Positions 14,640 through 48,610 of a stretch of DNA of 64,000 nucleotides are shown one piece after another (the stretch's first letter is position 1; each line of letters starts with the position of its first letter). A program made the translations under genes and the position numbers. The notes beneath the pieces are model-generated. The model was not told the origin of the DNA, did not search any database, and was given only the letters and a program-made list of their open reading frames with translations. Source of the DNA: Diphasiastrum complanatum (lineage: Eukaryota > Streptophyta > Lycopodiopsida > Lycopodiales > Lycopodiaceae); contig CM055103.1 of assembly GCA_029204225.1 (NCBI GenBank), forward strand, positions 43,968,604 through 44,032,603. Direction: 5' to 3'.

Positions 14640-15800
<1,161 letters not shown>

Positions 15801-15834
15801 TCAGGGTCTCATCACATTAGCTACATATTGAGCC

Positions 15835-15978
15835 TGTTGGAATATCAATCCACACTCTAGAGAGAACTATCAAACAGGGCGGATAGCTCAGTGGTAGAGC
15901 ATCCCATCCGGTATGAGGGAGGTCATGGGTTCGAATCCTAGTCTATCCATCCATATTATGATTTATGGATTTCTAACA
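15835..15978 (+). repeat. TRIM 5' LTR
   Basis: A 144-bp LTR starting TGTTGGAATATC and ending TTCTAACA, with the tRNA-like sequence at 15877-15948. Relative to the 3' LTR I see three substitutions, all inside the tRNA-like part. Confidence 0.92.
15877..15948 (+). promoter_or_regulatory. tRNA-like sequence with pol III A and B boxes (5' LTR)
   Basis: The A box TAGCTCAGTGG (15884-15894) and B box GGTTCGAATCC (15928-15938) both fit the pol III consensus exactly. A D-arm (GCTC/GAGC) and a T-arm are visible. The acceptor stem GGGCGGA/TCTATCC pairs with one mismatch and G-T wobbles. The anticodon stem does not fold well, so this is unlikely to be a working tRNA. It is more likely an internal promoter or a captured tRNA relic. 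Confidence 0.8.
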
Positions 15979-15990
15979 TGGTATCAGAGC
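15979..15990 (+). promoter_or_regulatory. TRIM primer-binding site
   Basis: TGGTATCAGAGC directly follows the 5' LTR. It is complementary to the 3' end of plant initiator-methionine tRNA, the usual primer for plant LTR elements. Confidence 0.92.
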
Positions 15991-16093
15991 TAAGAGGACC
16001 TAACAGTTCATGGTGTCAAAGCCATGGTTAGGTGGCCCAAGTTGTGGGGCAGGTGACAACTAGGACCCCAACCAAGTGTGGCTTGAGGGGGGG

Positions 16094-16237
16094 TGTTGGA
16101 ATATCAATCCACACTCTAGAGAGAACTATCAAACAGGGCGGATAGCTCAGTGGTAGAGCATCCCATCCGATATGAGGGAGGTCCTGGGTTCGAATCCTAG
16201 TCTGTCCATCCATATTATGATTTATGGATTTCTAACA
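16094..16237 (+). repeat. TRIM 3' LTR
   Basis: A 144-bp LTR preceded by the purine run at 16085-16093. It carries the second tRNA-like copy (16136-16207) and is followed by the GAGCC target duplication. Confidence 0.92.
16136..16207 (+). promoter_or_regulatory. tRNA-like sequence with pol III A and B boxes (3' LTR)
   Basis: The A box is at 16143-16153 and the B box at 16187-16197, both consensus. Here the acceptor stem GGGCGGA/TCTGTCC pairs fully (two G-T wobbles) and the T-stem CTGGG/CCTAG pairs, so this copy is closer to a real tRNA fold than the 5' copy. The anticodon arm remains irregular. Confidence 0.8.
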
Positions 16238-16790
16238 GAGCCCACTTTCAGGGCACACCCAAAGAGGCCTGCATATGTCAATTGTGCACACTTGGAGAGA
16301 TTGAGGATGAGGATCATTTCATTTTTAGATGTCCTATCTATTACGAGATTCGAGGACCCTCCCTCACTCCCTCCCTCACTCTCTCTCTCTCTAATAGATT
16401 TTTAAGGCACCAAAGCCTTTCTTGAATAAGATATTGCAACAAGTCCTAATATGAGATGATGGGATGAGATAACCTTTCTACAAGTATAACAAGTATTATT
16501 CAAGAATCAAAAGAGCCATTCGAAAAGGAAGAGGTAGAGGGCAGGGCATGTGAGTCAACATTCCCAAAATGTGCAACAAAACTTTATTTGAGAATGAGGC
16601 CTAAGAAGTTTAAGGGCCAAGTTTGGGGGGGGAGGGGGGGTGCGGGGAGAGAGGAGAGAGGGAGAAGAAAGAAAGTTTTATTAACGTCTTTTCCATGCCC
16701 AATGTTGCATCCATTGGTTCGAATCAACTGGGTCAAGTTTAAATCAGCCGATTCGAACAATTCTTTTCATTTTTTGAGGCCGATTTCAAT

Positions 16791-25735: not shown

Positions 25736-26867
25736 TTGTTCATGTGGCATGTACTATTCATTTGACTAGGTTTATAAGTTCAGCAACTCTCCCTTAAACC
25801 TATTAAATGAATAACTCCTAATGCTTTTCGATGCTTTTCAAATAAGCTCTTATCCAAGGGTTGGGTGAAGATGTTGGCTACCATGTCTTCACTTGGCACA
25901 TATTCCACTTCGATGATTTGTTTTTCCACCAAATCTTTAATGGGATGATATCTCATAGCTATGTGCTTAGTTCTTGGATGAAATATGGACTCCTTGCTTA
26001 GTAAGATAGCCAAAGTGTTATCCATGAGAATTAAGTAAGGATTTTCTTGAAAAGCTCCAAGCTGGTCCGAGATGTATTGCATCCATAGGATTTCATTGCA
26101 TGCCTTTGCCGCTGCCACATATTCCGACTCACAAGATGATTGAGCAACAATTGATTGCTTTTTGCATACCCATGAAATAGCAGCACCTGCAACTAGACAA
26201 ATACATCCAGAGATGCTCTTTGAATCATCCTTCCTGGACATCCAGCTTGCATCTGTATAGGTGATTACGTGTATGCTTTTGTCATGGGAAAAATGAAATC
26301 CATAGTTTATAGTATGCTTGAGATATTTCAAAACATGTTGTGCTAATTTTCAATGTTTCAAACCTGGATTAGAATTGGCTAAGGCTGAAAATTGGAAAAG
26401 CTATTTCAAGTCTAATCCATGTTGCTAAATATATAAGGGAATCAATAAGATGTTGATAGGGAATGAGGGGCATCTGCTTATTTTCCTCTTCAGTTGTAGG
26501 ACAATCATCCTTTGATAATATGGTTCCTGTAGGCATAGGAACCATTTTCGCTTTGCAATCCTGCATGTCAAACCTGTCAAAAAGCTTTGAAATATAGAGA
26601 GATTGATCTAGGAAATAATTAGAGTTTTCTTTTTCAATTTGCACACCAAGGTAAACTTTGGCTTCTCCCATATTTGCAATTTCGAATATAGAGGATATTT
26701 GCTTCTTTACTATCTCCATGTCTTTTATGGACTTAGTAGATACATTGTCAATGTATCATCAACATTCACATTAATGTCATGTGCATGCTTCGCTCTCTCT
26801 TTCATTCTGTCTGACTCTCTTACTGTTTTGTCTGATTGCCTCTTCGCTTTCCCAACTCAAACGATTC
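25736..26867 (-). pseudogene. Ty1/copia RT C-terminus and RNase H fragment inside the Ty3-like element
   Basis: Two minus-strand frames (26369-26719 and 25780-26331) read as the copia RT end (IANMGEAKVYLGVQIEKENS, QSLYISKLFDRFDMQDCKAK) and copia RNase H (VITYTDASWMSRKDDSKSIS, SCESEYVAAAKACNEILWMQ, SEDMVANIFTQPLDK). A frameshift separates them near 26340. No copia LTR, gag or integrase is present, and its ends coincide with the two copies of the protease region. It was most likely captured by template switching. Confidence 0.88.
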
Positions 26868-27900
26868 TTGTGCATATAAATACCCTAGATAAGTAATAGT
26901 GACCATCTGGCAAATATCCTCGGATGAAAAATGTGTAACAGTAAGGGCCAAAGGCGCATGAATCATGTCAGGAACCGTAGAAATATCATGAGGCAGATCA
27001 CAAACCTCAAGCAGAGATCCATGGAGTAAAGCGAAAGAAGATACAACCTGATCACCAATAGCGAGGGAACCATCAAACGTAGACCCATGAAGAACACCAT
27101 AGAAATCAGCAGGAACATCGGCCATAACAGACTCAAGAGATGGAGATATAGAGACCAATGGAGAAGATACTGCACCAACCACCGAACCAGGAGGGCAATC
27201 TGAAGTATGCGCAAAAGCAATAGTAGAAATACCACCAAGGTATACGGTCTCAATATCAATGAAACCAGGAATGACCACTGAATACGATATCTGTGAATCA
27301 AGGCATATAGGTGCAAGGCACACAGCAACAACCTGTAAATCCGAAGCAGCATCAACCTGAGGAAGAGGACCCACGGATGGTGAAAGTGAAGCAGCAACTG
27401 ATGTACTCTGAATGGAAAGAAGAGCTGTATCGTCAGCCTTTGGCAGGCTACGCATAAACTGCTTCCCGGTAACCAACTGGAAGTCTCCGTGAGAATCAAT
27501 GCCAACAAGTGAGTGTGTAATTGCATCAAGTACAAATGTCAATGTCTGCTGTGTCAAGTCCAGTGTAACGGCTCCAAGAGATGCAAACCAATCAGCACCA
27601 AGGATAAGATCATAACGCTCCATAGGAATAATGTAAAGATCTGCCTGTCCAGAAAAATCTCCAATGCGGTATGGTAAACGCTGAAACATCTGAGAACTAG
27701 GAAAAGAATGGGAACTGGCAACCTCAACTGTGAGAGGCTGTGAAGCAGGAACAGGTGAAGCAGTATCCGACTAGTGATATAACGGCTAATAAAAGAATGA
27801 GTGCTACCAGTATCAACTAAAGCAGTATACTCACGACCTGTAATACGTACACGTAACCGAATGGAGCGAGGACCAGGACGCCCTGTCCAAGTAGCATAGG
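26868..27900 (-). CDS. Ty3 aspartic protease and downstream region
   Basis: Retropepsin cleaves the gag-pol polyprotein. Upstream of 27800 the frame reads the conserved active site ALVDTGSTHSF and the lead-in CHAQLAYATW. From 27689 comes FQRLPYRIGDFSGQADLYII, then ILGADWFASLGAVTLDL and GKQFMRSLPKADDTALLSIQ, closely matching the autonomous protease (about 63420-63850). Where that element enters its RT, this one continues into unrecognised sequence until the copia junction at 26867. The catalytic DTG is intact, but frames change near 27770. Confidence 0.75.
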
Positions 27901-27999
27901 CAAGCTGAGCATGGCAAGTAGCAGGAAGTAAATTAGTGGAAGGCTCAGAGGATAGGTCAGGCTCATCAAAAATATGAATGTAGATATCGGAATCATCTG

Positions 28000-29098
28000 G
28001 AGTAGTGCCCTCATGGTAAAAAACAGCAGTAATAGTAGGGAGAGGCTGACGGCAATCACGGGCAAAATGGTCAGGACTCTTACAACGAAAGCAAAGACGC
28101 TGCTGCTGAAGGTCAGCGAACTCTGCAGACGTGTAACGTCGGACAAAAGCAAGTCGAGGTGTCGGAGGACGAGGAGACGAAGGGACAATGGAGAGAGCTG
28201 GAACTGAAGGGGCAGGTGTAGGGGTGGATGCAGCGGGAAAAGATGAAGCAAAAGGATGGGGTCAGGAGAAGCGGGAAGGAAGAGTGTCAGAGTACTTATG
28301 CTGTAAAGTACTGGCGAGAGACATCGCCTCAACAAATGTGGGAGGACGGAAGGTCATAACGTAAAGCACCACGAAGCCCAGCAATGTAACGAGAAATAAG
28401 CTCAGTGGGCTGTAGATCTATGAAAAGATAAGAAAGCTCCATAAACTGATCTGTATAAGAAGCAAGATCACTGGTCTGAGTGAGACTACGGAATGGATCA
28501 CGTTGGCGGTCGAGCCACTGAGGGTCAATCATAGCATGACGGAGGTCACGGCGAAAAGTATGCCATAAATGGAGCCCTTCCCGATCAGGATCAGCTCTAT
28601 AAACTCGCCACCATGTGGCGGCGCGTCCATCTAAATGTAAAGCAGCCAACTGGATCTTCTGAGGATCAGTCTTAGGGTAGATCTGAAAATATGTGTCAAG
28701 CTTAGCAAACCAATTCTCTAATAAGTTCCCGTCAGAGGAACCGGAATAGGTAGCAAGCTGTACCCTATCACAAAAGTCTCGAGCAAAGTGTGGCTCAGGA
28801 AGTGGGGGACGTGAAAAGAAACAGGAGATGGGTTAGGTGGAATGATCGGTCCACCACCAGGCTGACTAGCAGAGGAAGATGGAAATCCAAATGGAGGGGG
28901 AGTCCTAAATGACGGAAAAACAGGAGCTTTACCAGGACCATGAGGCTGTAAAGAATCAATCTGTCACTGCATAGTAGCAAAGCCGATCATAACGGTATCG
29001 AAGCGAAGAACGAGGCCAGAAAGGGTCTCATCCATGCGACGAAACTGATCGGATAAGGTTTCCTGAGTAGTCTCACTCGGGGTAGGTGAATGTGCCAT
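28000..29098 (-). pseudogene. Ty3-like gag (capsid and zinc knuckle), broken
   Basis: Gag forms the virus-like particle that packages element RNA. The likely start is MAHSPTPSETTQETLSDQF at 29098. A TGA near 28964 and further shifts break the frame. The capsid core is visible in 28329-28649: LDGRAATWWRVYRAD, RRDLRHAMIDPQWLDR and YTDQFMELSYLFIDLQPTEL. The zinc knuckle CFRCKSPDHFARDC (CX2CX4HX4C) is encoded at about 28060-28100. Confidence 0.78.
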
Positions 29099-29459
29099 AA
29101 TGATAGTGGAAGGAATAGACGAAAACTTGAGAGAGTAGACTCTTGTTGTCACCCCAAATTAGTCTATTAAAACCACTATTATCACAACTAAGAAAGGACA
29201 GCAATCATCAAATGAAAAAAAGTGAAAATGAAGGCTGTGAAAATGCGCTGGACAGCCAGGAGGCAAGTGACAAATTGGAATATCAAACGGAGTCGGAATT
29301 TCGTGAAATTTGGTTGAGGATGGGCGATGGACTCCTCCAAACTGTGCTGAATGTTGCTGATGCAAAGAGACGAAAGCCCTCAGCAAAGAGAGAAAAATCA
29401 GCAAGGAAAATGGGCACCCAAGCAGAAAATCAGATCTGAAATTCAGCAATCAGGAAAGT

Positions 29460-29471
29460 GCTCTGATACCA
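29460..29471 (-). promoter_or_regulatory. Primer-binding site
   Basis: On the minus strand the sequence TGGTATCAGAGC lies directly after the 5' LTR. It matches the 3' end of initiator-methionine tRNA and is identical to the TRIM primer site. Confidence 0.92.
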
Positions 29472-30539: not shown

Positions 30540-31160
30540 GGTGTAGGAGCAGTCTGGGACCCCGTTCACATCACCTTCATCTTGGGTTATGAAACCGTAA
30601 CGACATCCATTCTTCGACAACGGCATGTGATTTATCATACTTCATTTCATAGGGGGATATTGGGGTCACCATCTCTCATACATTTTTATTTGTTTTCACC
30701 ATTTCCTGTAACATTATCTAATCATTCCTTTCTTTCGATCCACTTGGGCTCCATGTTATGTCCTTCTTCATCCCATCCCTCTCCAATGGAACATGCTCCC
30801 AAATACAAGTTTAGTCGTGCATGCAAACATCTTCATTAGACAGCTCTCCCTTTCATACTCTGAAGTTTTCCATATAATAGCCCCCTCCACTCCCAAGCAT
30901 CGTTTCTCACTACAACTCTTCATACCACTACTTCCATGGCTTCCCCATCTAAACATCATTAAAAAACTCCTCTCTCTCGCCCATACATCATCATTTGGTA
31001 TGATGATATTTGTAAATAACTCCATCTACAAGTCGCTTATGCACAATCATCTTCGTAATATCAAATGCCTCTATGGTTATATTGGTTGTTAAAAAAAGCG
31101 TGCATATGAGACCTCGGAAGGGAAGCGCCTTGTCGATCTCCCTGTTCTCACCCCCACCAT
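30540..31160 (+). pseudogene. LINE F endonuclease remnant
   Basis: Only the last third of the endonuclease can be traced: GSPSLIHFYLFSPFPVTLSN and HSFLSIHLGS (30650-30750), equivalent to DYLMGSPSL...TLSDHSHLS in LINE G. The WNCNG, ETHES and GDFNAR boxes are deleted. Confidence 0.6.
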
Positions 31161-31399
31161 TGTCTCGTGCACCCAAATACTTTTTTGACTACTCACTCGC
31201 ACCTACCTATCAGCATTCGCTTACCCTGCTGCTCCACATTTTCCCACATCATAGCTCGCTTGAAGCGCAAGCTTCCTTCCTTACCACAAAACTCCATATG
31301 GCTGCCACTGCTTCCTTCCCTTATAAACCCCATCATAACAAACACAAACAAAACACCAAGCCTAGATCGGTGCGCCCACCTTGGTAAGACGATGATTGT

Positions 31400-32630
31400 C
31401 GTTCCCACCACACCTTGTCACACATGCTCACATACACACACCTCATCTCTTGCAATCCACACGTCGTCTCTTTACCCGCTTACTTTGTCGTGGGCATATG
31501 ATAGTTTGGAAGAGCGACGACTTATTGGTCTTCTCTATAGTTCTTCCACAGGCGCATTCTGGCGTGAGTTCATTCCCCGTGCTCCACCTCCGCTCCTTGA
31601 TGATTTGTGCATTTGGATTGATTTTGCCACTGCCTTATATACCATTGATACTGACACACCTATTTCCATCTGCCCTAGACCTTCTGAGTTTACCTTCTTC
31701 ACTATTGATATGGTCCACAACGCCATCAAGAAATTGAATACCAGTAAAGCCAGGGATATTGATGACCTTGAATCTGAGCTTTTAATCCATGCTGCTGATT
31801 TACTATCACCTCTCCTAGCCACTCTACTCAATCAAGCCGTTGTCTCCGGTTTTCCTTCTTCTTCGTGCATCATCCACCCCATACACAAAAATAGTGATCC
31901 CATGAATCCTAGTAACTATTGGACTCTTATGATTGGGCACATTACCACGAAGTTGTATGGCATTATTCTTCAATCAGCTGTGAGTACTGAGGCAGAGACT
32001 AGGAGATTGCATGCTATGGGCCAAGCTAGATTTAGAGCCCATTATTCTACTACTGATCATATCTTTACTCTCAGAGCCATTATCGAGGAAGCTTGGCACC
32101 GGCGAGAGCGAGTTTATTATTGCTTCGTGGACTTCAGGAAAGCCTTTGACTCTATCCCACACTCCTTACTCATTCAGCAGATACAAGACCTTGGTTTCTC
32201 TGATGACACAATCTTAGCAGGAATGGCACTTTATGAGAGAGTATTGGGATGTTTTCGGAGTGACAGAGGCATCTCAGAGCAGATCAGAAGCATTATTGGG
32301 GTGAAGCAGGGATGTTCCCTCTCTCCCACACTTTTTGGATTATATATTGATGAGTTGGAGAGGGTTATTGAGCATTGTGGCAGATCTGGTTGCAGACTCG
32401 GAGACATCTTGATCGCTATTCTTCTTTATGTAGATGATGTGGTTCTACTTTCACCTACTAGAGAGGGGTTACAAAGACAGATTGATTGTCTTCATGGTTT
32501 CTCTTCCAGATGGGGCCTAGGGGTGAATGTTGCGAAGACCAAGGTGATGGCCTTCAACACTTCCAGGAGCTTTATGTGCTCCTGCCTGACAGTCAGCCAC
32601 TGGAGATTGTTCCATCCTACACTTACTTAG
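31400..32630 (+). pseudogene. LINE F reverse transcriptase
   Basis: This is the longest open LINE RT frame in the window (frame open 31167-32630). In order: WREFIPRAPPPLLDDL; PSEFTFFTIDMVHNAIKKLN; NYWTLMIGHITTKLYGIILQ; AHYSTTDHIFTLRAIIEEA; VDFRKAFDSIPHSLLIQQIQ; GVKQGCSLSPTLFGLY; and the catalytic box LLYVDDVVLL (YVDD, against YADD in G and J). The fingers and palm look complete. The frame ends at a shift near 32590, after which the C-terminal part lies in another frame. ORF2 as a whole is dead because the endonuclease is gone. Confidence 0.82.
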
Positions 32631-33579
32631 CCACACTTTTTACTGGTCCTATATTTAGTATGAGACAGGCAGCTTCTAGTAGGCTTGGGAAAGGCCATGC
32701 CTCCCTTACCCAGATGGAGAGATTTTGCTCTGTAAGTCTATTCGAGATGCCACGAGTAAATGTCGGCTTTTTGACACCATTGTTTCTCCTATAGCCCTAT
32801 ATGCATTAGTTGTATGGTGCACTGGTCTTACTTCATCTGACTAGGCCAGTATCTCACGATTACAGATCACTATGCTCTGACGCATGATTCGGGCTAAGCC
32901 TTCAGTTCCACACCAGATCATACTTTCTGAGTTTGCAGTCCCGCCTATGTACTACCTTGATGCCCTACTCCAGGTCATCACATATATACAGCACGTCAGT
33001 GCATTCCAGTCTTCTGAGTAGAGATATACTCAGGCTACTCTCATTTCATCCCAGAGCCTTCACAGTCAGGGCTACCATTTGGCTTGGTTCTCTCAGGCCT
33101 TCAAACTTCTTGGCACACTCGGTATCTCTATCACTGCACTTTCTTCTGGTACCCATGATTACATCCGACGATTCATCTATAGAGCTTATCTTGATTGAGC
33201 CTGGCATGGTCAGTTGGGTGCCAAGCTTGACTTTTATCGGCTTCATTTTTTGGAGACTGATGTATTAGGGTCCCCACTTCTACCACACTATCTACGCTCT
33301 AGGTTATCACATGGTCTCAGATTCATATTGGGTCAGCTCCGTGTCTCTTCACACCAGCTTGAGATTGAGATTGGTCGGTTTCAGGATACCCCACGAGAGA
33401 ATAGGATCTGCCAGCTATGTTCCCTTGATGTGGTGGAGACTAAGGAGCATTTTATCTTCATTTGCCCAGTTTATTATGAGATCCGTGGCAGATACTATTG
33501 CTTGTTCAGGGATACACCACTTACTTTGCGCTCTCTTGTTACCTATGAGGATCTACGTTGTGTTGCACTTATGATCTGA
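32560..33579 (+). pseudogene. LINE F ORF2 C-terminal region with CCHC finger
   Basis: Segments in two frames include SQPLEIVPSYTYLATLFTGP (about 32590), then several stops, a DTHDYIRRF-like stretch and, from 33214, RLSHGLRFILGQLRVSSHQL and the finger CQLCSLDVVETKEHFIFICP (C-X2-C-X8-H-X4-C), then YYEIRGRYYCLFRDTP. Such fingers at the C-terminus of LINE ORF2 proteins bind nucleic acid. Confidence 0.75.
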
Positions 33580-34121
33580 AAGATGCTTCTCTTACGACGA
33601 GATCTCCAGCCTCTGCGTCAGACTACTCCAGACACAGCTTTAGATTACCTCCTTTTTCTCCAGACGACGCTCACGACCAGCCCCAGACTCAGACGATGTT
33701 GTCGATGATGAGGACACGACTTCCCACAGAGATTAGAGACAATGCACCTCCCAACATTACCCCGCAGTCAGACCTATTCGTCCTACCACGAGGAGACGTC
33801 CTTCCTACATTCGATGACGGCAGCGGATCTCAGTTTCACTCCCCACTGCGGCCTGTATTTCTTCAGTAGTAGCAGCATCAGTAGCAGCAGTATCATTATC
33901 ACCTCTAGGACATGATCTGCAGCTTGCTCCCATTATACATAACTATTTCTTGCTTTATACCTTTTTGGTTTAGTTAACACTGGTAATTGTCTTTAGATCT
34001 TTTTTATATGCTTTTCTTTCAGTCTCAGAGACATTTTTCATATGCTCCCTTGTGGTTCACATACTTGATATGTACTTATTTGTCTTATATGCCATTTGGC
34101 ATGGAAAAGACATTAATAAAG

Positions 34122-34166
<45 letters not shown>

Positions 34167-34248
34167 GCAATGGCTCTCCAACGCCCTCTCTCCCTGTCCA
34201 GCGAACTAGCTACTTCTCCTCCATCGCCCTAGCTCCCTCTCCCTTTCC

Positions 34249-35305
34249 ATGGCCAAAAAGAAGATCCGGGGGAGCCCAAGACCCCCCACCCACCTTTCCC
34301 CACGCTCCCCCCACACTAGCTCCTCCTCCTCCTCCTCCATCGCCCTAGTTGCTACCCCCCCTACTTCGCCCTCCTCCTCCTCCGTATCTCCTCCTTCCCC
34401 CTCCCCTACCCCTCCTCCCTCTGCTGCGCAGCAGGTAGCAGCAGGCCTGTTCTGCTGCTGATGTACCTGCTGCGCAGCAGCAGGCTTGCCCCGTGTTCCC
34501 TACTGCTTGGCAGCATGATGGACTTGCTGCTACCAGACAGCAGGGGGTTGTGCCTCAGCCCCCCTCCCTGTCCCGGTTCCTATTCCTACGGCCAGTCCTA
34601 TCATCGACCCTCATACCCCATCCGTCCCTCTTACCCCCTTTCTTTCTACGGTGGACTATTCTAGCACCAAATCCTTCGAAACCTTTCTTGCCTGTGAACT
34701 GAAATCTCTTAAAGCTGAGGTCCAATCACTTAGATCGGAGGTTAATCATTTACGAGAGGATAACAGTCGGTTGCGGACAGCCTTTACAGATTTCAGTGCC
34801 ATTCCTTTGCTCAATGATGGGGCTGCAACAAAGATCCAGGAAATACAAGAAGAGCTGACCCAACACAAGGAATCCACCAAAACGTGGGCATCACTCCTTA
34901 AAGGCGGCAATGAAGGTAACCACATGTCGAGTTTCATTGCTGCCACTTTATCAGAAGAAAAATTGAGAGAACAAAAATCGCATAATGTTAAGAGTTCGTG
35001 GAATTCCCGATACCCGAAATACATTACAGGAAGCAAGTAACTTTTTGAGCACTACGTTGTCCCATCATAGCAATGGAATTGATAAAGTTTGGCGACCAAA
35101 GAAAGATAATGCCACGCTTGTCATTCGCTTTACATCGTTGGAAGAACGCAGATCAGTCCTCCGACTTAAATCCAAACTCAAGGGTACCAAAATTTATTTG
35201 GATGATGACCTGACATTTATTCAGGTGGAAGAACGTCGAAGAGCTTTTTATGAAGCTCGTGAGCAAGGCAGAATTGCTATCTACAGAGATGGACAGGTTA
35301 AATAA
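34249..35305 (+). pseudogene. LINE G ORF1 (coiled-coil RNA-binding protein)
   Basis: The start MAKKKIRGSPRPPTHLSP at 34249 gives a basic, then Ser/Pro-rich N-terminus; related MARK starts occur in the minus-strand LINEs. From 34651: a coiled coil (LKSLKAEVQSLRSEVNHLRE), WASLLKGGNEG and SFIAATLSEEKLREQKSHN. A frameshift near 34990 passes to RVRGIPDTRNTLQEASNFLS, KSKLKGTKIYLDDDLTFIQV and GRIAIYRDGQVK, with the stop at 35305. This is the L1-ORF1-like layout of coiled coil, RNA-recognition domain and C-terminal domain. Confidence 0.8.
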
Positions 35306-35385
35306 ATTGATGGCAAGTCACACTAGGTAGTCGGGGGCCCTAGGCATGGGAGCGCCCCGGGCCCCCATCCATCACCTTCTCCATT

Positions 35386-36678
35386 GTGTATAAGTGTTTG
35401 GAATTGTAATGGGATACACTCATCTTCGACAATGGGTGATCTTTTGGACTTCATTACACATGGAGCCATTCTATTTTTCACGGAGACACATGAGAGCTCC
35501 TTGAGGGGATTACCGGAATTTTCTGGATTTTGATGGTATTCAGCATTTAGGGCAGAGACACGGATTATGGCAGTAGAGGTTCAGGTGGGGTTGCATGTCT
35601 ATATCGGGAATCTTTACAGCCAATCCTCCAGTTAGTCAGCCAGGATGAGCATGCGTGTTATCTTTGGATTCGCCTCATTGGTCAGAGTCTTGGATTGGAC
35701 AGGGATACTTTTATAGCCATTTGTTATTTTCCTCTTGAGACATCTACTTTTGCTGATTGTACTGATTCTCCATATGCTGATCTTTCTTCCGATATCCTCC
35801 GTCATGCAGAGCGTGGCCATATTATATTGACTAGTGATTTTAATGCCAGAACAGCCTCACGTCAACCGGTATTTCATGACATTGCAGACTCACTTCACAT
35901 ACGGGCCCTTGATGATGTGGATATGGGTATTACCAGGATTTTTGTTGATGCTGCCGGTCCAGTCACGACCTATGGTGAGTATCTACTTCATCTGGGAGCA
36001 GCTCATGAGTTAGCCATTTTTAATGGCCTCTCGTACAGGCCCAATTCTAGTGCCTTCACGTGCCATCCTCATAGCGGCGGTCATAGTGTGGTGGATTATC
36101 TCATGGGATCCCCCCCTCTTATCTCTCGCATCTCTGATTTTCACATCTCTTCCACTACATTGTCCGACCATTCACACCTATCTTTTTGCCTTGGGCATAT
36201 CGCACAACCTAATATACATCCTACTCCTGTTACTACTCCTAAGCGAGCACCTATATACCATTTTGATCCCATCCTCATTCCTCAATACCAAGAATCTCTC
36301 ACCACCTTACTTCATCACTTCCCTACTGACACTTCATTGGAGGATCAAGCTACTTTCCTCACTAATACTCTTCATATGGCAGCCACACTTGTTTTCCCTT
36401 CTCGTCGTCCTCCTACCAACTCTCTTTCACATAAAACTCGTGCTCCTAAACAACCTTGGTATGACTCTGACTGTCTTCTCCTCCATCAACAAGTTATCCA
36501 ATGTCAATCCGCCTATCTCCTCCATGATATCCTGCACACATACCGAAGGGTCCTCCGCAATAAAAAAAATGTACTTATAACACGAATAAGGGAAAAAGGC
36601 TTATTAATCTTCCTTCCAGTTCCTCTACTGGTGCTTTTTGGCGTGCCTTTACCCCTCGCTCTCCAACCCCCCCATTGA
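35386..36678 (+). pseudogene. LINE G ORF2 APE-type endonuclease
   Basis: It begins ISVWNCNGIHSSSTMGDLLD, followed by FFTETHESSLRGLPE (catalytic Glu). A stop after EFSGF and two shifts follow to about 35690. From 35695 the frame is open for 327 codons: AICYFPLETSTFADC, ILTSDFNARTASR (the GDFNAR box with G changed to S), HSGGHSVVDYLMGSPPL and TLSDHSHLS. A linker with YRRVLRNKKN precedes a frameshift to the RT frame near 36600. Confidence 0.8.
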
Positions 36679-38309
36679 CTGATCTCCACATCTGGACTGA
36701 GTATGCCACCGCTTTATATACCTTACCTGCTGATATCCCAATTGTTATTTCTCCTCATCCCTCTGAGTTTTCGTTCTTCACTGTTGACATGGTTCTCGTG
36801 GCCATTAAGAAGTTAAGAACTCGCCACGCCCGTCACATTGATGACCTAGAATCTGAACTCCTCCTCCATGCTCCTGACACACTAGCACCGGTGTTATCCA
36901 CTCTCCTTAACCAAGCAGTTATTCACGGTTTTCCCTCTTCCTGGTGCACTAATATCATCCACCTCATCCACAAGAGCGGGGATCCCATGAAACCTGATAA
37001 CTATCGCACTATTATGATCAGACATATTATTGCTAAGCTCTATGGCACCATTCTCTAGTCAGCAGTGAGTACAGAGGCAGAGACTCAGAGACTACATGCT
37101 TTGGGTCAGGCTGGTTTTCGGACACACTACTCTACTACAGACCACATCCTTACACTCCGATCTATCATTGAGCAGACCAGACACAGACGAGAGCGAGTTT
37201 ATTGCTGCTTTGCAGACTTCAGGAAAGCTTTTGACTCAGTTCCACGCCATTTACTCATCCAGAGGCTCAAGGACTTAGGCTTTTCCACGGATACCATTTT
37301 GGCAGTGGTGGCTTTATATGAGAGAGTTTTGGGTTGTTTCAGAGACACATCAGGCATTTCCGACCCGATATGGAGTAACATTGGGGTGAAACAGGGATGT
37401 TCCCTTTCACCTACGCTTTTTGGCCTATATATTGATGAGCTTGAGTCAGTTATCAGACAGGATGGTGGGATCGGCTGCAGTCTGGGTGACATACTTATTG
37501 CTATACTGTTATATGCTGATGATGTGGCTTTAGTCTCACCGACTAGAGATGGACTCTAGAGACATTTGGACAGCCTACATACTTTTTGCACCCGCTGGGG
37601 ATTGAGGGTGAATATATTGAAGACCAAAGTGATGGTCTTCAATACCTCCAGAGCCTTCATGCAACGTCAGGAGATTTTCCTCGATGGTCAGCTCTTGGAG
37701 ATTGTTTCATCCTACACTTATTTGGGTGTGAGTGATCCGATTTTCAGTATGCGGCAGGCAGCCTCAGATCGACTTGGGAAGGGTCATGCTTCCCTTGTCC
37801 AGTTTGAGAGATTTTGTTTCAGGAGTTATACTCATGATGCTCCCAGTAAGTGTCGTCTCTTCGACACTATGGTCACTCCTACAGCTTTATATGCGGCAGA
37901 GGTTTGGTGTACACGTATGGCCTCCTCGGATTGGTCTCGTATATCTCGACTCCAGACCTCCATGCTCTCTCGGATGATTAGGGCTAAGTCGTCAGTTCCA
38001 CACCAGATTATCACTGCTGAGTTTGCTATTCCTCCTATTTTAGTGGATGCCCTTTTAAGGCTCATTATATATATCCAGAGAGTATTGGTTCTCCCTTCTG
38101 ACAGCTATTCCTACCTTGCAATCACATCCTCGAGACTACTCTATGACAGTGGAGTCCATTTCTCATGGTACTCTCAGGCTGCACGCCTCTTGAGCACATT
38201 TGGTAATTCAGTTTCTGATCTCCCAGCAGGCACTCATGAGTACATTAGACGTTTCATTTATCGGGCTTATATCCAGCATACTTGGCAGGGGCAGTTGAGT
38301 GTCAAGTGA
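36675..38309 (+). pseudogene. LINE G reverse transcriptase with two TAG stops
   Basis: One frame spans 36675-38309, interrupted only by TAG codons at 37056-37058 and 37557-37559, both where relatives have CAA/CAG (Gln). Motifs in order: LHIWTEYATALYTLPA; DNYRTIMIRHIIAKLYGTIL; FADFRKAFDSVPRHLLIQRL; GVKQGCSLSPTLFGLYIDEL; ILLYADDVALVS (catalytic YADD); LRVNILKTKVMVFNTS; SSYTYLGVSDPIFSMRQAA. The frame ends at a TGA after SVK. This is the best preserved catalytic core among the (+) LINEs. Confidence 0.85.
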
Positions 38310-38992
38310 TATTTCTATCGGACACATTTTCTAGAGTTTAATGGAGCAGGCTTTCCTATACGGGCACACTATCTCTCCATGGACTCTCACATTGTTTACG
38401 GTTTACTCTTGGATAGTTTCGGGTTTCTTCCCACCAGCTTTCTATTGAGACTGGTCGTTACCAGGGTACTCCACGTGAGGACAGATTATGTCAAATGTGT
38501 TCCTTTGGAGAGATCGAGTCGGAGGAGCATTTCCTTTTCAGATGTTCGGCCTACTATGAGATCCGAGGAAGTTACCATTGTCTTTTTAGAGGTGCACCCA
38601 CTTTACGCTCTCTTATCACTCATGTGGATCCTAGGTGTGTCGCCCTTATGATATATGAGATGTCCTTGATACGGAGAGCCCGTGCTTCAGTGGATAGTGA
38701 TACACAACCTCAGATTACGGACTTTTCCACCAGTTGCCGTCCTCGACCAGATTCAGCTTCACACAATGACATCGACATTGACCTAGGTCATCGCGATCAA
38801 AGACAGCGCTTGACCTCAGGTATTACCGTGGTCCGAGCACTTCCGGTTACTAGGAGAGTTTGCCCTCAGAGGTCCCATACTGCACAGAGTCAGCACCCAC
38901 AGAGACGTCACAGACAATATTGGCACCCATCCTCTACTGCAGTATCATCTTTAAGGGCTCATATTACAAACTTCTTTAGTGGTCTTAGCTGA
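38310..38992 (+). pseudogene. LINE G ORF2 C-terminus with CCHC finger
   Basis: After the stop at 38309 the sequence continues in shifted frames. From 38495 the frame reads CSFGEIESEEHFLFRCSAYY and EIRGSYHCLFRGAP, the finger conserved in all copies (its first Cys lies just upstream at KCVPLE in a neighbouring frame). It continues through CVALMIYEMSLIRRARASVD to a Gln/Arg/His-rich tail with the stop at 38992. Confidence 0.75.
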
Positions 38993-44257: not shown

Positions 44258-44950
44258 TCAATGTATGGTGGCATCTGGAATCTCAGCCTCTCCATCAAAA
44301 TCACTACTCTCCTGCCTCTGTCTCCGGCGGGATAGACACTCCTGTATGCTCAGCTGTATCAAGGGGGAGGTGTCAGCGTCAAGACTCGCCATACGCAAGT
44401 CTATCATCTCCCGGATCATCAACGCAACACATCTGGAGTTCTCATACGATATCAAGGTAGAGAGTGCAAATGGATGATCTCGAAACAAGCAGTAGTATCT
44501 CCCTCGAATCTCATAGTAAGCTGGGCATCTGAAGAGAAAATGAAACTCATCCTCTATATCATGTAGGTCACACATACTACAAATCCGCGCATCTCTTGGG
44601 ATGCCCCTATATCTGCCAGTCTCAACAGCTAACTGGTGAGAGGAAACCCGGAACTGACCCATCACAATCCGCAGTCTGTGTGAGATACTGTTCACTAGGT
44701 ATCTGGGTAAAATGGGATACCCAGCAAGATCCCGGGATAGAAAATCTGCCCGATAAAACTCCGTCTTCACCCCAGATGAGTCCTGCCAAGTGCTCTGAAG
44801 ATATGCCCTGTATGGGTATCCTCTAATATATTGATGAGTACCAGTTGGTAGATCCGTAATGTGTATACTCAATGTGGAGAGGAGACGACAGGCCTGGGAA
44901 TACCATGAAAAGGAGTGTCCCTCAGAGTGTAGGTGCTGGGAGGACGACAA
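44258..44950 (-). pseudogene. LINE I ORF2 C-terminus with CCHC finger
   Basis: A 230-codon open frame: GHSFSWYSQACRLLSTLSIH, TDLPTGTHQYIRGYPYRAYL, RLRIVMGQFRVSSHQLAVET, then the finger CSMCDLHDIEDEFHFLFRCP and YYEIRGRYYCLFRDHPFALS. It ends with a charged tail (SRRRQRQESSDFDGEAEIPD) at 44258. This is the cleanest copy of the C-terminal domain in the window. Confidence 0.82.
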
Positions 44951-45099
44951 AGCTGCTGCAGCATAGTGTGTGCCTCTACCCTGGAGATCCTCCAGTCGCT
45001 GTATGAATGTGACAATATGGAACAGTGCCTCTATCTAAATAGGGGAGACAGCAAACTTTGCCAATATGATATGATGTGGGATAGAGGGTTTAGCCCGTA

Positions 45100-46357
45100 T
45101 CATCCGAGAGAGCATATGAATCTGAAGTCATGAGATGCCGCCCACTCGGTAGTCGTCAAGCCAATACTCCATGTCTCTGATGCGTATAGAGCTGAGGGAA
45201 CGACCATAGTGTCAAAGAGTCGGCACTTACTAGTCGCATCCCAAACATGTGAGCTGAAACATAATCTCTCCAAATCTACCAACGATGCATAACCCTTCCA
45301 TAGCCGGGAAAATGCCGCCTGTCGCAAGCTGAAAGAGGGACCAGAAAATACCACACCTAGGTATGTGTAGGAGTCAACTACCTCAAGTGGATGCTCCTCC
45401 CATAGAAGCACCTGTCGCATCATGAAGGATCTGGAGGTGTTAAATACCATAACTTTGGTTTTGGCCACATCCACTGATAATCCCCACTGAGTACAAAAAG
45501 AGTGAAGCGCGTCAAGATGCTGTTGCAGACCTTCCAAAGAGTGTAGGAGAGAGAGGACATCCCTGCTTAACCCCAATGGTACTCTCTATCTCTGGTGATA
45601 GAACTCCTGATACTCGGATACGACCAATAACTCGTCTGTACAATGCCACAACTGCCTATATGATATCCTCCTAGAGGCCACGGTCCCGAAGTCTCTGTAT
45701 CAGTAAATGTCGAGGCACAGAGTCAAAGGCCTTGCGGAAATCCACAAAGCAGCAGTATACACGCTCTCTCCTGGCCTTAGCCTCCTCAATGATGGATCTC
45801 AAGATGAAAATATGACCTGATGTAGTATATCCTGGTCTAAAACCTGCCTGACCTATGGCATGCAGTGCTCGGGTATCCATCTTTGTACTGATCTCTGACT
45901 GAAGAATAGAACCATAAACCTTGGCAAAGAAGTGGCTGATCATGATGGTACGATAGTTGTCGGCTTTCATGGGATCACCGCCTTTATGGATAGGATGGAT
46001 AAGGTTTGTGGACCAGGGGGAGGGGAAAGCGGATGTGATAGAGCAGTTAAAGAGGAAAGAGAGGAAGGGTGAGAGAATGTCAGCAGCTTGCTTCAAAAGT
46101 TCAGCTTCTAGATCATCAATATCTTTGGCCTTATGTAGATTTAATCGGTCAATGGCCTCTTCTACTATGGCTAGGGAGAATATATCAGAAGTACGTGTGT
46201 AGGGATGTGTGGGAAGTGGAGGGGTGTCAGGAATAGTGTACAACGATGTGGCATAGGTTACCCATGTGCTAAGATCTATGATTTGGGGTGGAGGTGCCCG
46301 TGAGAGGAATTTTTGCCAAAATGATCGCGACAAGGAGCTAAAGAGAAGGTCCATCAT
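45100..46357 (-). pseudogene. LINE I reverse transcriptase lacking the YADD box
   Basis: Frame 45671-46357 covers LSRSFWQKFLSRAPPPQIID, KADNYRTIMISHFFAKVYGS, PGYTTSGHIFILRSIIEEAK and VDFRKAFDSVPRHLLIQRLR. After a shift, the sequence near 45560 reads GVKQGCPLSLLHSLEGLQQH: the block between SPTLF and the YADD box is deleted. The post-catalytic part (45100-45576) is open: LSVDVAKTKVMVFNTSRS, VDSYTYLGVVFSGPSFSLRQ. The deletion ends share CTCTC, so it may be a microhomology deletion. It cannot polymerise DNA. Confidence 0.82.
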
Positions 46358-46366
46358 CTTCTTTCC

Positions 46367-47570
46367 CTAGCCAATTTCGTAAATAATTTTCTTTTTTCGG
46401 GTGGTTCTACGATATACACGGGATAAGTCCTTTACCATATGGGGAAGGTGGCAGCGTGCATAAATCAAGTCCAGATGAAGTTGGTGACACTCATGGTCAT
46501 ACCAGGGGTTATGTGGTCGATTATGTCGTAAGTGCTTGGGCCGTGGAGATGGAAAAGCAAGGGAGGCAGCGGCATGCAGAGTCCGGACAAGAAATAGAGA
46601 CTGGTCCGTCAAAGTATCGTCGTAAGGGAAATGAGTCAGGAGCTCAGATAATGCTTCCCTGTACCTAGGGGTGTTTTGAGGATTATAGCGGTATAATGTC
46701 TTGTTGCCAGGAGTTAGGGTACTAGTACGTGGGGTGTGAAGAAGGCCAATAGAGAGAGAGGGGTATGAGTGGTCAGACAAAGTGGTACGGTGAACCAGGA
46801 AAGATGAAATGTAGGGGAGGAGAGACGGCAATCCCATGAAATAGTCAACAACACTACTCCCTCCACTGTGTGGAAAACAAGTAAAGTCACCTGAATCAGG
46901 CCACCGCAATAAGCCATTATAAATGGCCAATCCATGAGCCTCGCCCAACTGAAGCATCTGCTCTCCATATGCAGTAACTGGACCCTCTACATTTGCTGAT
47001 CGTCGTCAGAGGCCAAGATCATCCCAATCTAAAGCATGTATCCGCTGTGGATCATCCTCTGCTCTATGGAACTGTTTGCCTGGATCCAGGTCCTGGCATT
47101 AAAGTCGCCAGCTGAAAGAACATAACCCCACTCCTCATATCTGATAATGTCTGAAGAGATATCCATGTAAGGTGACTCCTCATCTGCTGTGAAAACTGAT
47201 GTGTCTGGTGGAAAATAACAAATGGCCAGAAAGAGGTCACGGTTCAGTCCCATCAAAGTCCGGTCCACCCGAATCCAGGTATAGTGAGCTCTCTCATCTG
47301 TATGCACCAACTCGACCCAAGGCCAAATGAAGTCGCGGACTAAGCAAGCCACCCCACCATAACCCCGATCTGTCAATGCTCTCGTCGACCGCCAATGTTC
47401 AGAGTACCAGCAAAAACCCGTAACAACTGGTAGACCTCTTTCCGGACTCTCATGTGTCTCGGTGAATAGGAATAGATCACCCTCTGCACAAAAGCCTCTA
47501 AAATCGCCAGCAGTAGCTGAAGAGTGAATGCCATAGCAGTTCCATAGCTCAACCGCAATGCTCGAGAAGG
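46367..47570 (-). pseudogene. LINE I ORF2 endonuclease
   Basis: All catalytic boxes can be traced in three frames: VELWNCYGIHSSATAGDF (about 47560), FTETHESPERGLPVV, then RGYGGVACLVRDFIW and VLSAGDFNARTW (47029-47376). From 46957: EAHGLAIYNGLLRWPDSG, HSGGSSVVDYFMGLPSLL and TLSDHSYPS, to 46367. Two frameshifts and one stop separate the parts. The active-site residues themselves look intact. Confidence 0.82.
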
Positions 47571-47609
47571 ACCGCCCGAACCGCTTAGTCCGAGGGGCCT
47601 TAATCCCTA

Positions 47610-48233
47610 TTAGTCAGAATTTGGAATATCAATGTATCGAGCCTTGCCATCCCGATAAATTACCCTCTTCCCCAAAGCTTTTGCCTCAATGAATGCTTTT
47701 TTCCGATCCGCAACTTGCATGGGAGTGAGATCATCATCCATAAATATAAGTGTACCTCTAAGCTTGGCCCGCAGTTTGAGGGTTGCCCGTCTCTCTTCTA
47801 GATTCGTGAAGCGAACTATGAGTGTAGAAGGGTGTCTCTTGGTTCTCCAAGCTCTATCCAACCCTTCGGAGTGATGGGAGAGTGTGCTTGAGAGAAAGCT
47901 GGTTGCTTCAGTCATTGGATCGTTGGTGTCTTCAACTCCGCGGACCCTAATATTCAGGGATTTGTATTCTCGCATTCGCTCTTCGGATATGGTGGCCGAA
48001 ATGACTCGGTTGAAGGATGGTGTACCCTCCCTAACATCCTCCTTGAACAGAGAAGCCCACGATTTTGTCTCAGCCTTATGTTGCTCTATCTTCTCTTCCA
48101 ACTCTTGAATCTCAGTAGGTTCTTGTTTACTTATGGCTGTCTCCAAAGAAGTAATCCGGGCTAACATGATCTCTCCTTCAGCGGCCATAGTGTGAATGAG
48201 AGGAGTGAGCAGGTGTAGGCAACACTGTCTCAC
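47610..48233 (-). CDS. LINE I ORF1, open RNA-binding part
   Basis: An intact 207-codon frame: a short coiled coil (TEIQELEEKIEQHKAETKSW), ASLFKEDVREGTPSFNRVIS, the RNA-binding domain (LNIRVRGVEDTNDPMTEATS, LIVRFTNLEERRATLKLRAK) and a C-terminal domain (LIFMDDDLTPMQVADRKKAF, GKRVIYRDGKARY). The N-terminal part from [14 protein letters not shown] (about 48570) contains stops, so the full ORF1 is probably disabled. It would act in the LINE RNP. Confidence 0.78.
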   Translation of the reverse strand: MRQCCLHLLTPLIHTMAAEGEIMLARITSLETAISKQEPTEIQELEEKIEQHKAETKSWASLFKEDVREGTPSFNRVISATISEERMREYKSLNIRVRGVEDTNDPMTEATSFLSSTLSHHSEGLDRAWRTKRHPSTLIVRFTNLEERRATLKLRAKLRGTLIFMDDDLTPMQVADRKKAFIEAKALGKRVIYRDGKARYIDIPNSD

Positions 48234-48610
48234 CTTTCATACCGCATATGATTCCATCTGTAACCGCAGCAGTGCCATCATTAGGTCTTTGAGCAGCATT
48301 GGGAGCAGTGGCATATGGATTGGAAACAAAAGTTAGTGGACGACATCAGAGCTGGAGCAATGGTGGAGCTGGGTATGTCGTTGGTGGACCTGGGGCTTCA
48401 TCGGTGGAGACCCACGATGGAGGAACCTGGCCATTCAGCGATGTTTCATCGGTGGAGCAATGGAGGATCCTGGCCATTTAGCCATGGTGAAGGATGGGCC
48501 AATGGAGAAGTCTGGCCACAAGTAGAAGTCCGTGAGGGGGAGGAGCATGGGCTCCCCTTACCTTTTCTGGCCATAGAAGCGAGCCCCTACTACTGTAGCG
48601 CCATCTCCAT

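Follow-up and report, generated by a model that had tools for sequence, protein, structure and literature searches.

A TRIM family with a tRNA-like block in its LTRs in the lycophyte Diphasiastrum complanatum

A short LTR element and its insertion site

We analysed a stretch of 64,000 nucleotides from Diphasiastrum complanatum (hereafter the window; C12:43968604-44032603) which contains a 403-bp TRIM at positions 15835-16237 of the plus strand. Its two LTRs of 144 bp (15835-15978 and 16094-16237) start 259 bp apart in a direct-repeat comparison, run from TGTTGG to CTAACA and are identical at 141 of 144 positions (98%), the differences falling at LTR positions 77, 91 and 111. Between them lies a non-coding internal region of 115 bp (15979-16093), for which the genome holds 39 further scored matches of at least 96%. 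It opens with the primer-binding site (PBS) TGGTATCAGAGC (15979-15990), which we take to be complementary to the 3' end of initiator tRNA-Met, and closes with the polypurine tract GAGGGGGGG (16085-16093). Identical GAGCC target-site duplications (TSDs) border the element at 15830-15834 and 16238-16242. With two LTRs, a length below 1 kb and too little sequence to encode mobility proteins, the element has the dimensions of a TRIM; an earlier note on this DNA had named the 144-bp LTRs, the primer site, the purine tract and the GAGCC duplication, all of which are found in the sequence.

Each LTR consists of a 73-nt tRNA-like block (LTR positions 43-115) between arms of 42 and 29 nt, which total 71 bp. 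The blocks occupy 15877-15949 in the 5' LTR (A box 15884-15894, B box 15928-15938) and 16136-16208 in the 3' LTR (A box 16143-16153, B box 16187-16197). ARAGORN called exactly two tRNAs in the whole 64 kb, namely these two blocks, and the Rfam tRNA model (RF00005) scored them at 38.3 and 50.0 bits, respectively, against a gathering score of 29. A motif scan of both strands found the A box TAGCTCAGTGG and the B box GGTTCGAATCC exact in both LTRs, the blocks being the sole A-B box pairs in the window. The block in the 3' LTR folds better than that in the 5' LTR (-24.7 versus -19.8 kcal/mol). These results bear out what had been read from the sequence by eye (a tRNA-like stretch in each LTR, exact boxes and better pairing in the 3' copy), except that the block is 73 nt long and not 72. 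The same note had likened the element to Cassandra with a tRNA in place of 5S rRNA, which agrees with the anatomy. Rfam searches, run to E = 10 around the element and to E = 1 across the window, matched no 5S family.

A CAA triplet at 15871-15873, 6-4 nt upstream of the block in the 5' LTR, is a predicted start for polymerase III (pol III). In Arabidopsis tRNA genes, a CAA within 10 nt upstream marks the start site, and 36-45% of angiosperm tRNA genes have one (PMC11700998). No run of four Ts (T4) occurs inside the element, and the first run of at least four Ts past it, a predicted pol III stop, lies in the flank at 16322-16326. We rejected the absence of T4 as a sign of design, as 1290 of 2000 shuffled sequences also had none.

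The element sits in the second copy of a tandem duplication of about 1 kb (15169-16774). An alignment of repeat families D8 and D5 showed that the neighbouring copy runs uninterrupted across the corresponding site (15169-15230, plus strand), CATATTGAG being followed by ACAGACTACTTTC, whereas the order in the occupied copy is GAGCC, element, GAGCC, CACTTTC. Since a few bases at the insertion point differ between the two copies, this empty site is paralogous rather than allelic. Contig C2279 (L009) carries this insertion too, GAGCC duplication and all three LTR differences included, which makes an assembly error in the window unlikely. By eye, coding-like text in the tandem duplication is similar to a LINE reverse transcriptase at its zinc-finger end.

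Family members across the host genome

A protein from an integrase region of the window shares 93% identity over half its length with a D. complanatum protein (P0236), and another D. complanatum hit (P0238) has 73% identity. We searched the 1.74-Gb assembly of D. complanatum with the LTR, scoring 40 of 1190 first-look candidates, which gave 41 matches; within this scored set, at least 40 were full-length at 99% or more, including those of the window and of the C2279 insertion. Reading out 39 other places gave 40 loci with the window, and these contained 31 LTR-internal-LTR units. The PBS opening the internal region was exact in 27 of the 31 and carried one substitution in the remaining 4, and a perfect 5-bp TSD was present in 20. 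Eleven LTRs in these loci were unpaired; two of them have TSDs (TAAAT at L031 and GTTTC at L038) and resemble solo LTRs. At L034 the TRIM forms a tandem array, several family LTRs are truncated, and in another array (L047) one inner LTR lacks LTR positions 38-100, boxes included.

A query with the internal region (40 scored of 1114 candidates) yielded 30 loci, the window and C2279 among them. All 30 had at least one adjoining LTR match covering the block, with gaps in L055; the second LTR was missing or truncated in some. The earlier note had allowed that the block might be private to the window copy; instead, the genome holds many copies that carry it, apart from some truncated or deleted LTRs, and the full copies share the primer site as counted above. 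Pooling both samples gave 48 units, or 35 after merging those with like flanks, a step that joins not only allelic copies but array units as well. Of these 35 merged insertions, 21 had perfect 5-bp TSDs, and 3 had T4 runs in the transcribed part.

We also searched for the exact junction of LTR end and PBS, which occurs at 903 places in the genome, compared with 0 for a reversed control. The first 34 junctions on contig C1 served as a sample, of which 4 were already known as family members and 30 were read. Nineteen of the 30 belonged to the family (18 by the box test and L112 by eye) and 11 were other LTR elements without an LTR match. The block was present in 19 of the 19 family members, four of which had a truncated 5' LTR, and 7 of the 12 full units in this sample had a perfect 5-bp TSD. 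Scaling up (23/34 × 903) suggests roughly 600 family junctions, a rough estimate that uses a single contig and counts exact junctions alone. Overall, the block is a trait of the family, bar a few truncated or deleted LTRs.

All 70 of the near-full-length LTRs given to ARAGORN, picked for spanning the LTR, yielded a tRNA call, with anticodons assigned to Thr-GGT in 64, Ile-GAT in 3 and others in three. Among 78 family LTRs of exactly 144 bp (other lengths were dropped), 57 had both consensus boxes intact, 76 had CAA at the predicted start place and just 48 had fully paired acceptor and T stems. The consensus B box was lost in 21 of the 78, and in 16 of these 21 the CG within GGTTCGA had changed. 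Three further arrangements were also seen: three junctions 260 bp apart (C2:78731295, 78731555 and 78731815) suggest another array of the TRIM; in L095 an inverted copy of the start of the internal region stands ahead of that region, forming a foldback for which self-primed cDNA may be the source; and L147 (1-221) holds an LTR in which the front half of the tRNA-like block is duplicated.

LTR differences and change at CG and CHG sites

The earlier note had observed that the three differences between the LTRs of the window copy all lie in the tRNA-like part. This location is correct and, taken alone, not unusual (chance probability 0.13). The three positions (77, 91 and 111) are all CG/CHG sites. 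Across 27 pairs in which both LTRs measured 144 bp (others were dropped), we counted 79 differences in the block and 20 in the arms. The block has 16 sites in CG/CHG context, the arms a single one (CHG). After adding 9 pairs from the junction sample, the resulting 36 pairs showed 150 differences, 81 of them at the 16 block sites and none at the CHG site of the arms; CG/CHG sites differ about 10 times more often than other sites. Outside CG/CHG context, 38 differences at 57 block sites stand against 31 at 70 arm sites, with no clear difference between the two (p = 0.089), and the nine junction-sample pairs alone gave 18 against 11 (p = 0.087), so that the block may have a mild further excess. 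Conservation of the block outside CG/CHG sites does not exceed that of the arms, and selection on the boxes is therefore not seen in these young copies.

A cause specific to the tRNA, through errors in copying modified bases or mutation linked to transcription, could account for the block-to-arm ratio over the 27 pairs and for any mild excess outside CG/CHG context. It would also suit position 91, where 6 of 14 changes are transversions, compared with 10 of 67 at other CG/CHG sites (p = 0.009 in the first sample). Yet the 16 block sites in CG/CHG context account for more than half of the pooled differences, and the internal region, which lies outside the block, behaves in the same way: its CHG sites vary in 27 of 352 cells, compared with 44 of 4354 elsewhere (p = 2e-13, with the last 9 columns left out). 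This control led us to reject tRNA-specific mutation as the main cause, and we regard that explanation as improbable; the clustering of differences in the block is likely to reflect mostly fast change at CG/CHG sites and not tRNA function.

Decay of methylated cytosines would be the simplest cause of this excess. TRIMs in soybean and maize are methylated in CG, CHG and CHH contexts (PMC4717578). The LTR distance of the window copy (JC 0.021) is likely to overstate its age, since all three differences fall on fast-changing sites, and LTR dating of such elements is biased in the same way. Position 91 (15925 and 16184 in the window) is a CHG site at the base of the T stem, and its excess of transversions, one of which is the change in the window copy, is not explained by deamination.

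Proposed life cycle, relatives and possible partners

The A and B boxes and the upstream CAA are compatible with a pol III start. Transcription would begin at about LTR position 37, close to the CAA, continue across the internal region and the 3' LTR, the element having no T4, and stop at T runs in the flanking DNA. Initiator tRNA-Met would then serve at the PBS as primer for the minus strand, cDNA covering the block and the LTR end would be transferred to the 3' LTR, and plus-strand synthesis would start from the purine tract. Integrase supplied in trans would insert the cDNA, giving the 5-bp duplication. Because the promoter would lie within the transcribed part, it would be copied anew in each round. 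The helper acting in trans would be a Copia element; a 5-bp TSD and the PBS TGGTATCAGAGC are usual for plant Copia. After insertion, likely methylation of CG and CHG sites would wear the block out, a step suggested by the changed CG in 16 of the 21 lost B boxes. A TRIM family that carries the tRNA-like block as a rule, together with such a pol III-driven cycle, is the best joint explanation of the data, and we consider it probable.

Three other readings of the block deserve comparison. The family might be transcribed by pol II, the block being a passenger acquired once by the founder; constraint on the block outside CG/CHG sites is indeed not visible and the window element lacks an internal terminator, but the boxes are exact at tRNA spacing, the CAA stands where plant tRNA genes have it and arms totalling 71 bp would leave little space for another promoter, so that we find this account rather unlikely. 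The blocks might instead be working tRNA genes spread by the element, as the uniform ARAGORN calls could suggest. However, the anticodon call varies, the anticodon arm is irregular by eye even though ARAGORN accepts it, and the acceptor and T stems are fully paired in just 48 of 78 LTRs, which together make this very improbable. A late insertion of a SINE or tRNA gene into one LTR of the window copy, with the pattern private to it, is refuted by the family copies and retains next to no probability: the block occupies both LTRs within a single pair of TSDs, it adjoins the internal region in all 30 loci found without the LTR query, and every family member of the junction sample has it, the four with a truncated 5' LTR included.

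In 2024 Kojima gave the name Helenus (TRIMp3) to TRIMs whose LTRs contain tRNA-derived sequence, and proposed a pol III promoter role and an origin through insertion of a SINE into an LTR (PMC10886601). The D. complanatum element is a Helenus-type TRIM, an assignment made on anatomy. Like Helenus, it is shorter than 1000 bp and has a PBS, a polypurine tract and, in each LTR, a tRNA-like sequence with A and B boxes; the box patterns given for Helenus (TRGCY...YGG and GGTTC) occur exactly in both LTRs. The 5-bp TSD of plant and fungal Helenus likewise holds in the window and in the family. The single plant in the Helenus list is Selaginella moellendorffii, which belongs to the same class, Lycopodiopsida, but to the order Selaginellales (PMC10886601), whereas the present family comes from Lycopodiales; LTRs and internal region measure 120 and 85 bp in Helenus-1_SMo, compared with 144 and 115 bp here. 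Fungal Helenus has been linked to Copia (PMC10886601).

Cassandra is similar in carrying a pol III gene sequence in each LTR, in its PBS TGGTATCAGAGC and in forming tandem LTR-internal arrays (PMC7215508, PMC10886601), and this 12-mer stands in a Cassandra search query (PMC7215508). It differs in that its LTR holds 5S rRNA instead of a tRNA-like block and in having its own pol III terminator (PMC10886601), which the D. complanatum element lacks. Ordinary plant TRIMs are alike in size, structure, tandem arrays and presence in a lycophyte, Selaginella (Gao et al. 2016, PMC4717578), and the main text of that paper contains no occurrence of tRNA or polymerase III. The word Diphasiastrum is absent from the main text of PMC10886601, and we found no other report of such an element from Lycopodiales among the titles and abstract starts of the matches listed, a search to which closed journals and the Helenus supplement were external. 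The kind of element was thus already described in 2024, and what is new is a member in another plant group.

This adds a second lineage of plants to Helenus. The family, with about 600 LTR-PBS junctions by the estimate above, sits in an assembled genome, so that the putative pol III promoter is open to an RNA test. The tRNA annotation of the D. complanatum genome may be inflated by LTRs, given that ARAGORN called a tRNA in every LTR sampled. A broader scenario, which we hold to be doubtful, is that lycophyte TRIMs captured a tRNA promoter before Lycopodiales parted from Selaginellales and have depended on it ever since, and that the promoter also acts as a brake: it would add CG/CHG sites to LTR arms that have almost none, and host methylation would settle there and erase the B box.

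We also looked for the source of the block and for an autonomous partner. At 15 places a base other than A precedes an exact match to the 26-nt head of the block; all 10 that were read had the left LTR arm of the family before it, and these 10 included no SINE or tRNA gene with the exact head. A diverged donor may exist. A SINE would have its tRNA head alone with a LINE-type tail, while the block here lies inside LTRs. Exact pieces of the element had no match in one scan each of collections of viral contigs and genome contigs. In the partner search, 30 loci were read of 40 places, and 24 lacked the block by a simple text test; one of these (L095) retains the family internal region, and L084, L092 and L099 have a few bases past the PBS (CCAA) in common with the family. 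No autonomous partner was identified when the insides of the other elements with this LTR end and PBS, 11 of the 30 junction-sample loci among them, were compared by eye.

Seven loci (L108, L110, L113, L117, L123, L128 and L134) are alike by eye and represent another LTR family, with the LTR end TTTCTAACA (GTTTCTAACA in L134) followed by the same PBS; it is a possible helper candidate. Within the window, a Copia-like remnant on the minus strand (25780-29471), with the PBS TGGTATCAGAGC at 29471, seems to be interrupted by an element of Gypsy type that has a gag ORF. We rejected the Copia-like remnant as a partner, as it has just the PBS region in common with the TRIM by eye, in addition to short matches at chance level. 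Broken ORFs resembling LINE-type reverse transcriptase and endonuclease lie at 31110-38992 and 44258-48236, and the best named matches of the reverse-transcriptase ORF at 37059-37559 are from the fern Adiantum nelumboides (54% for the best).
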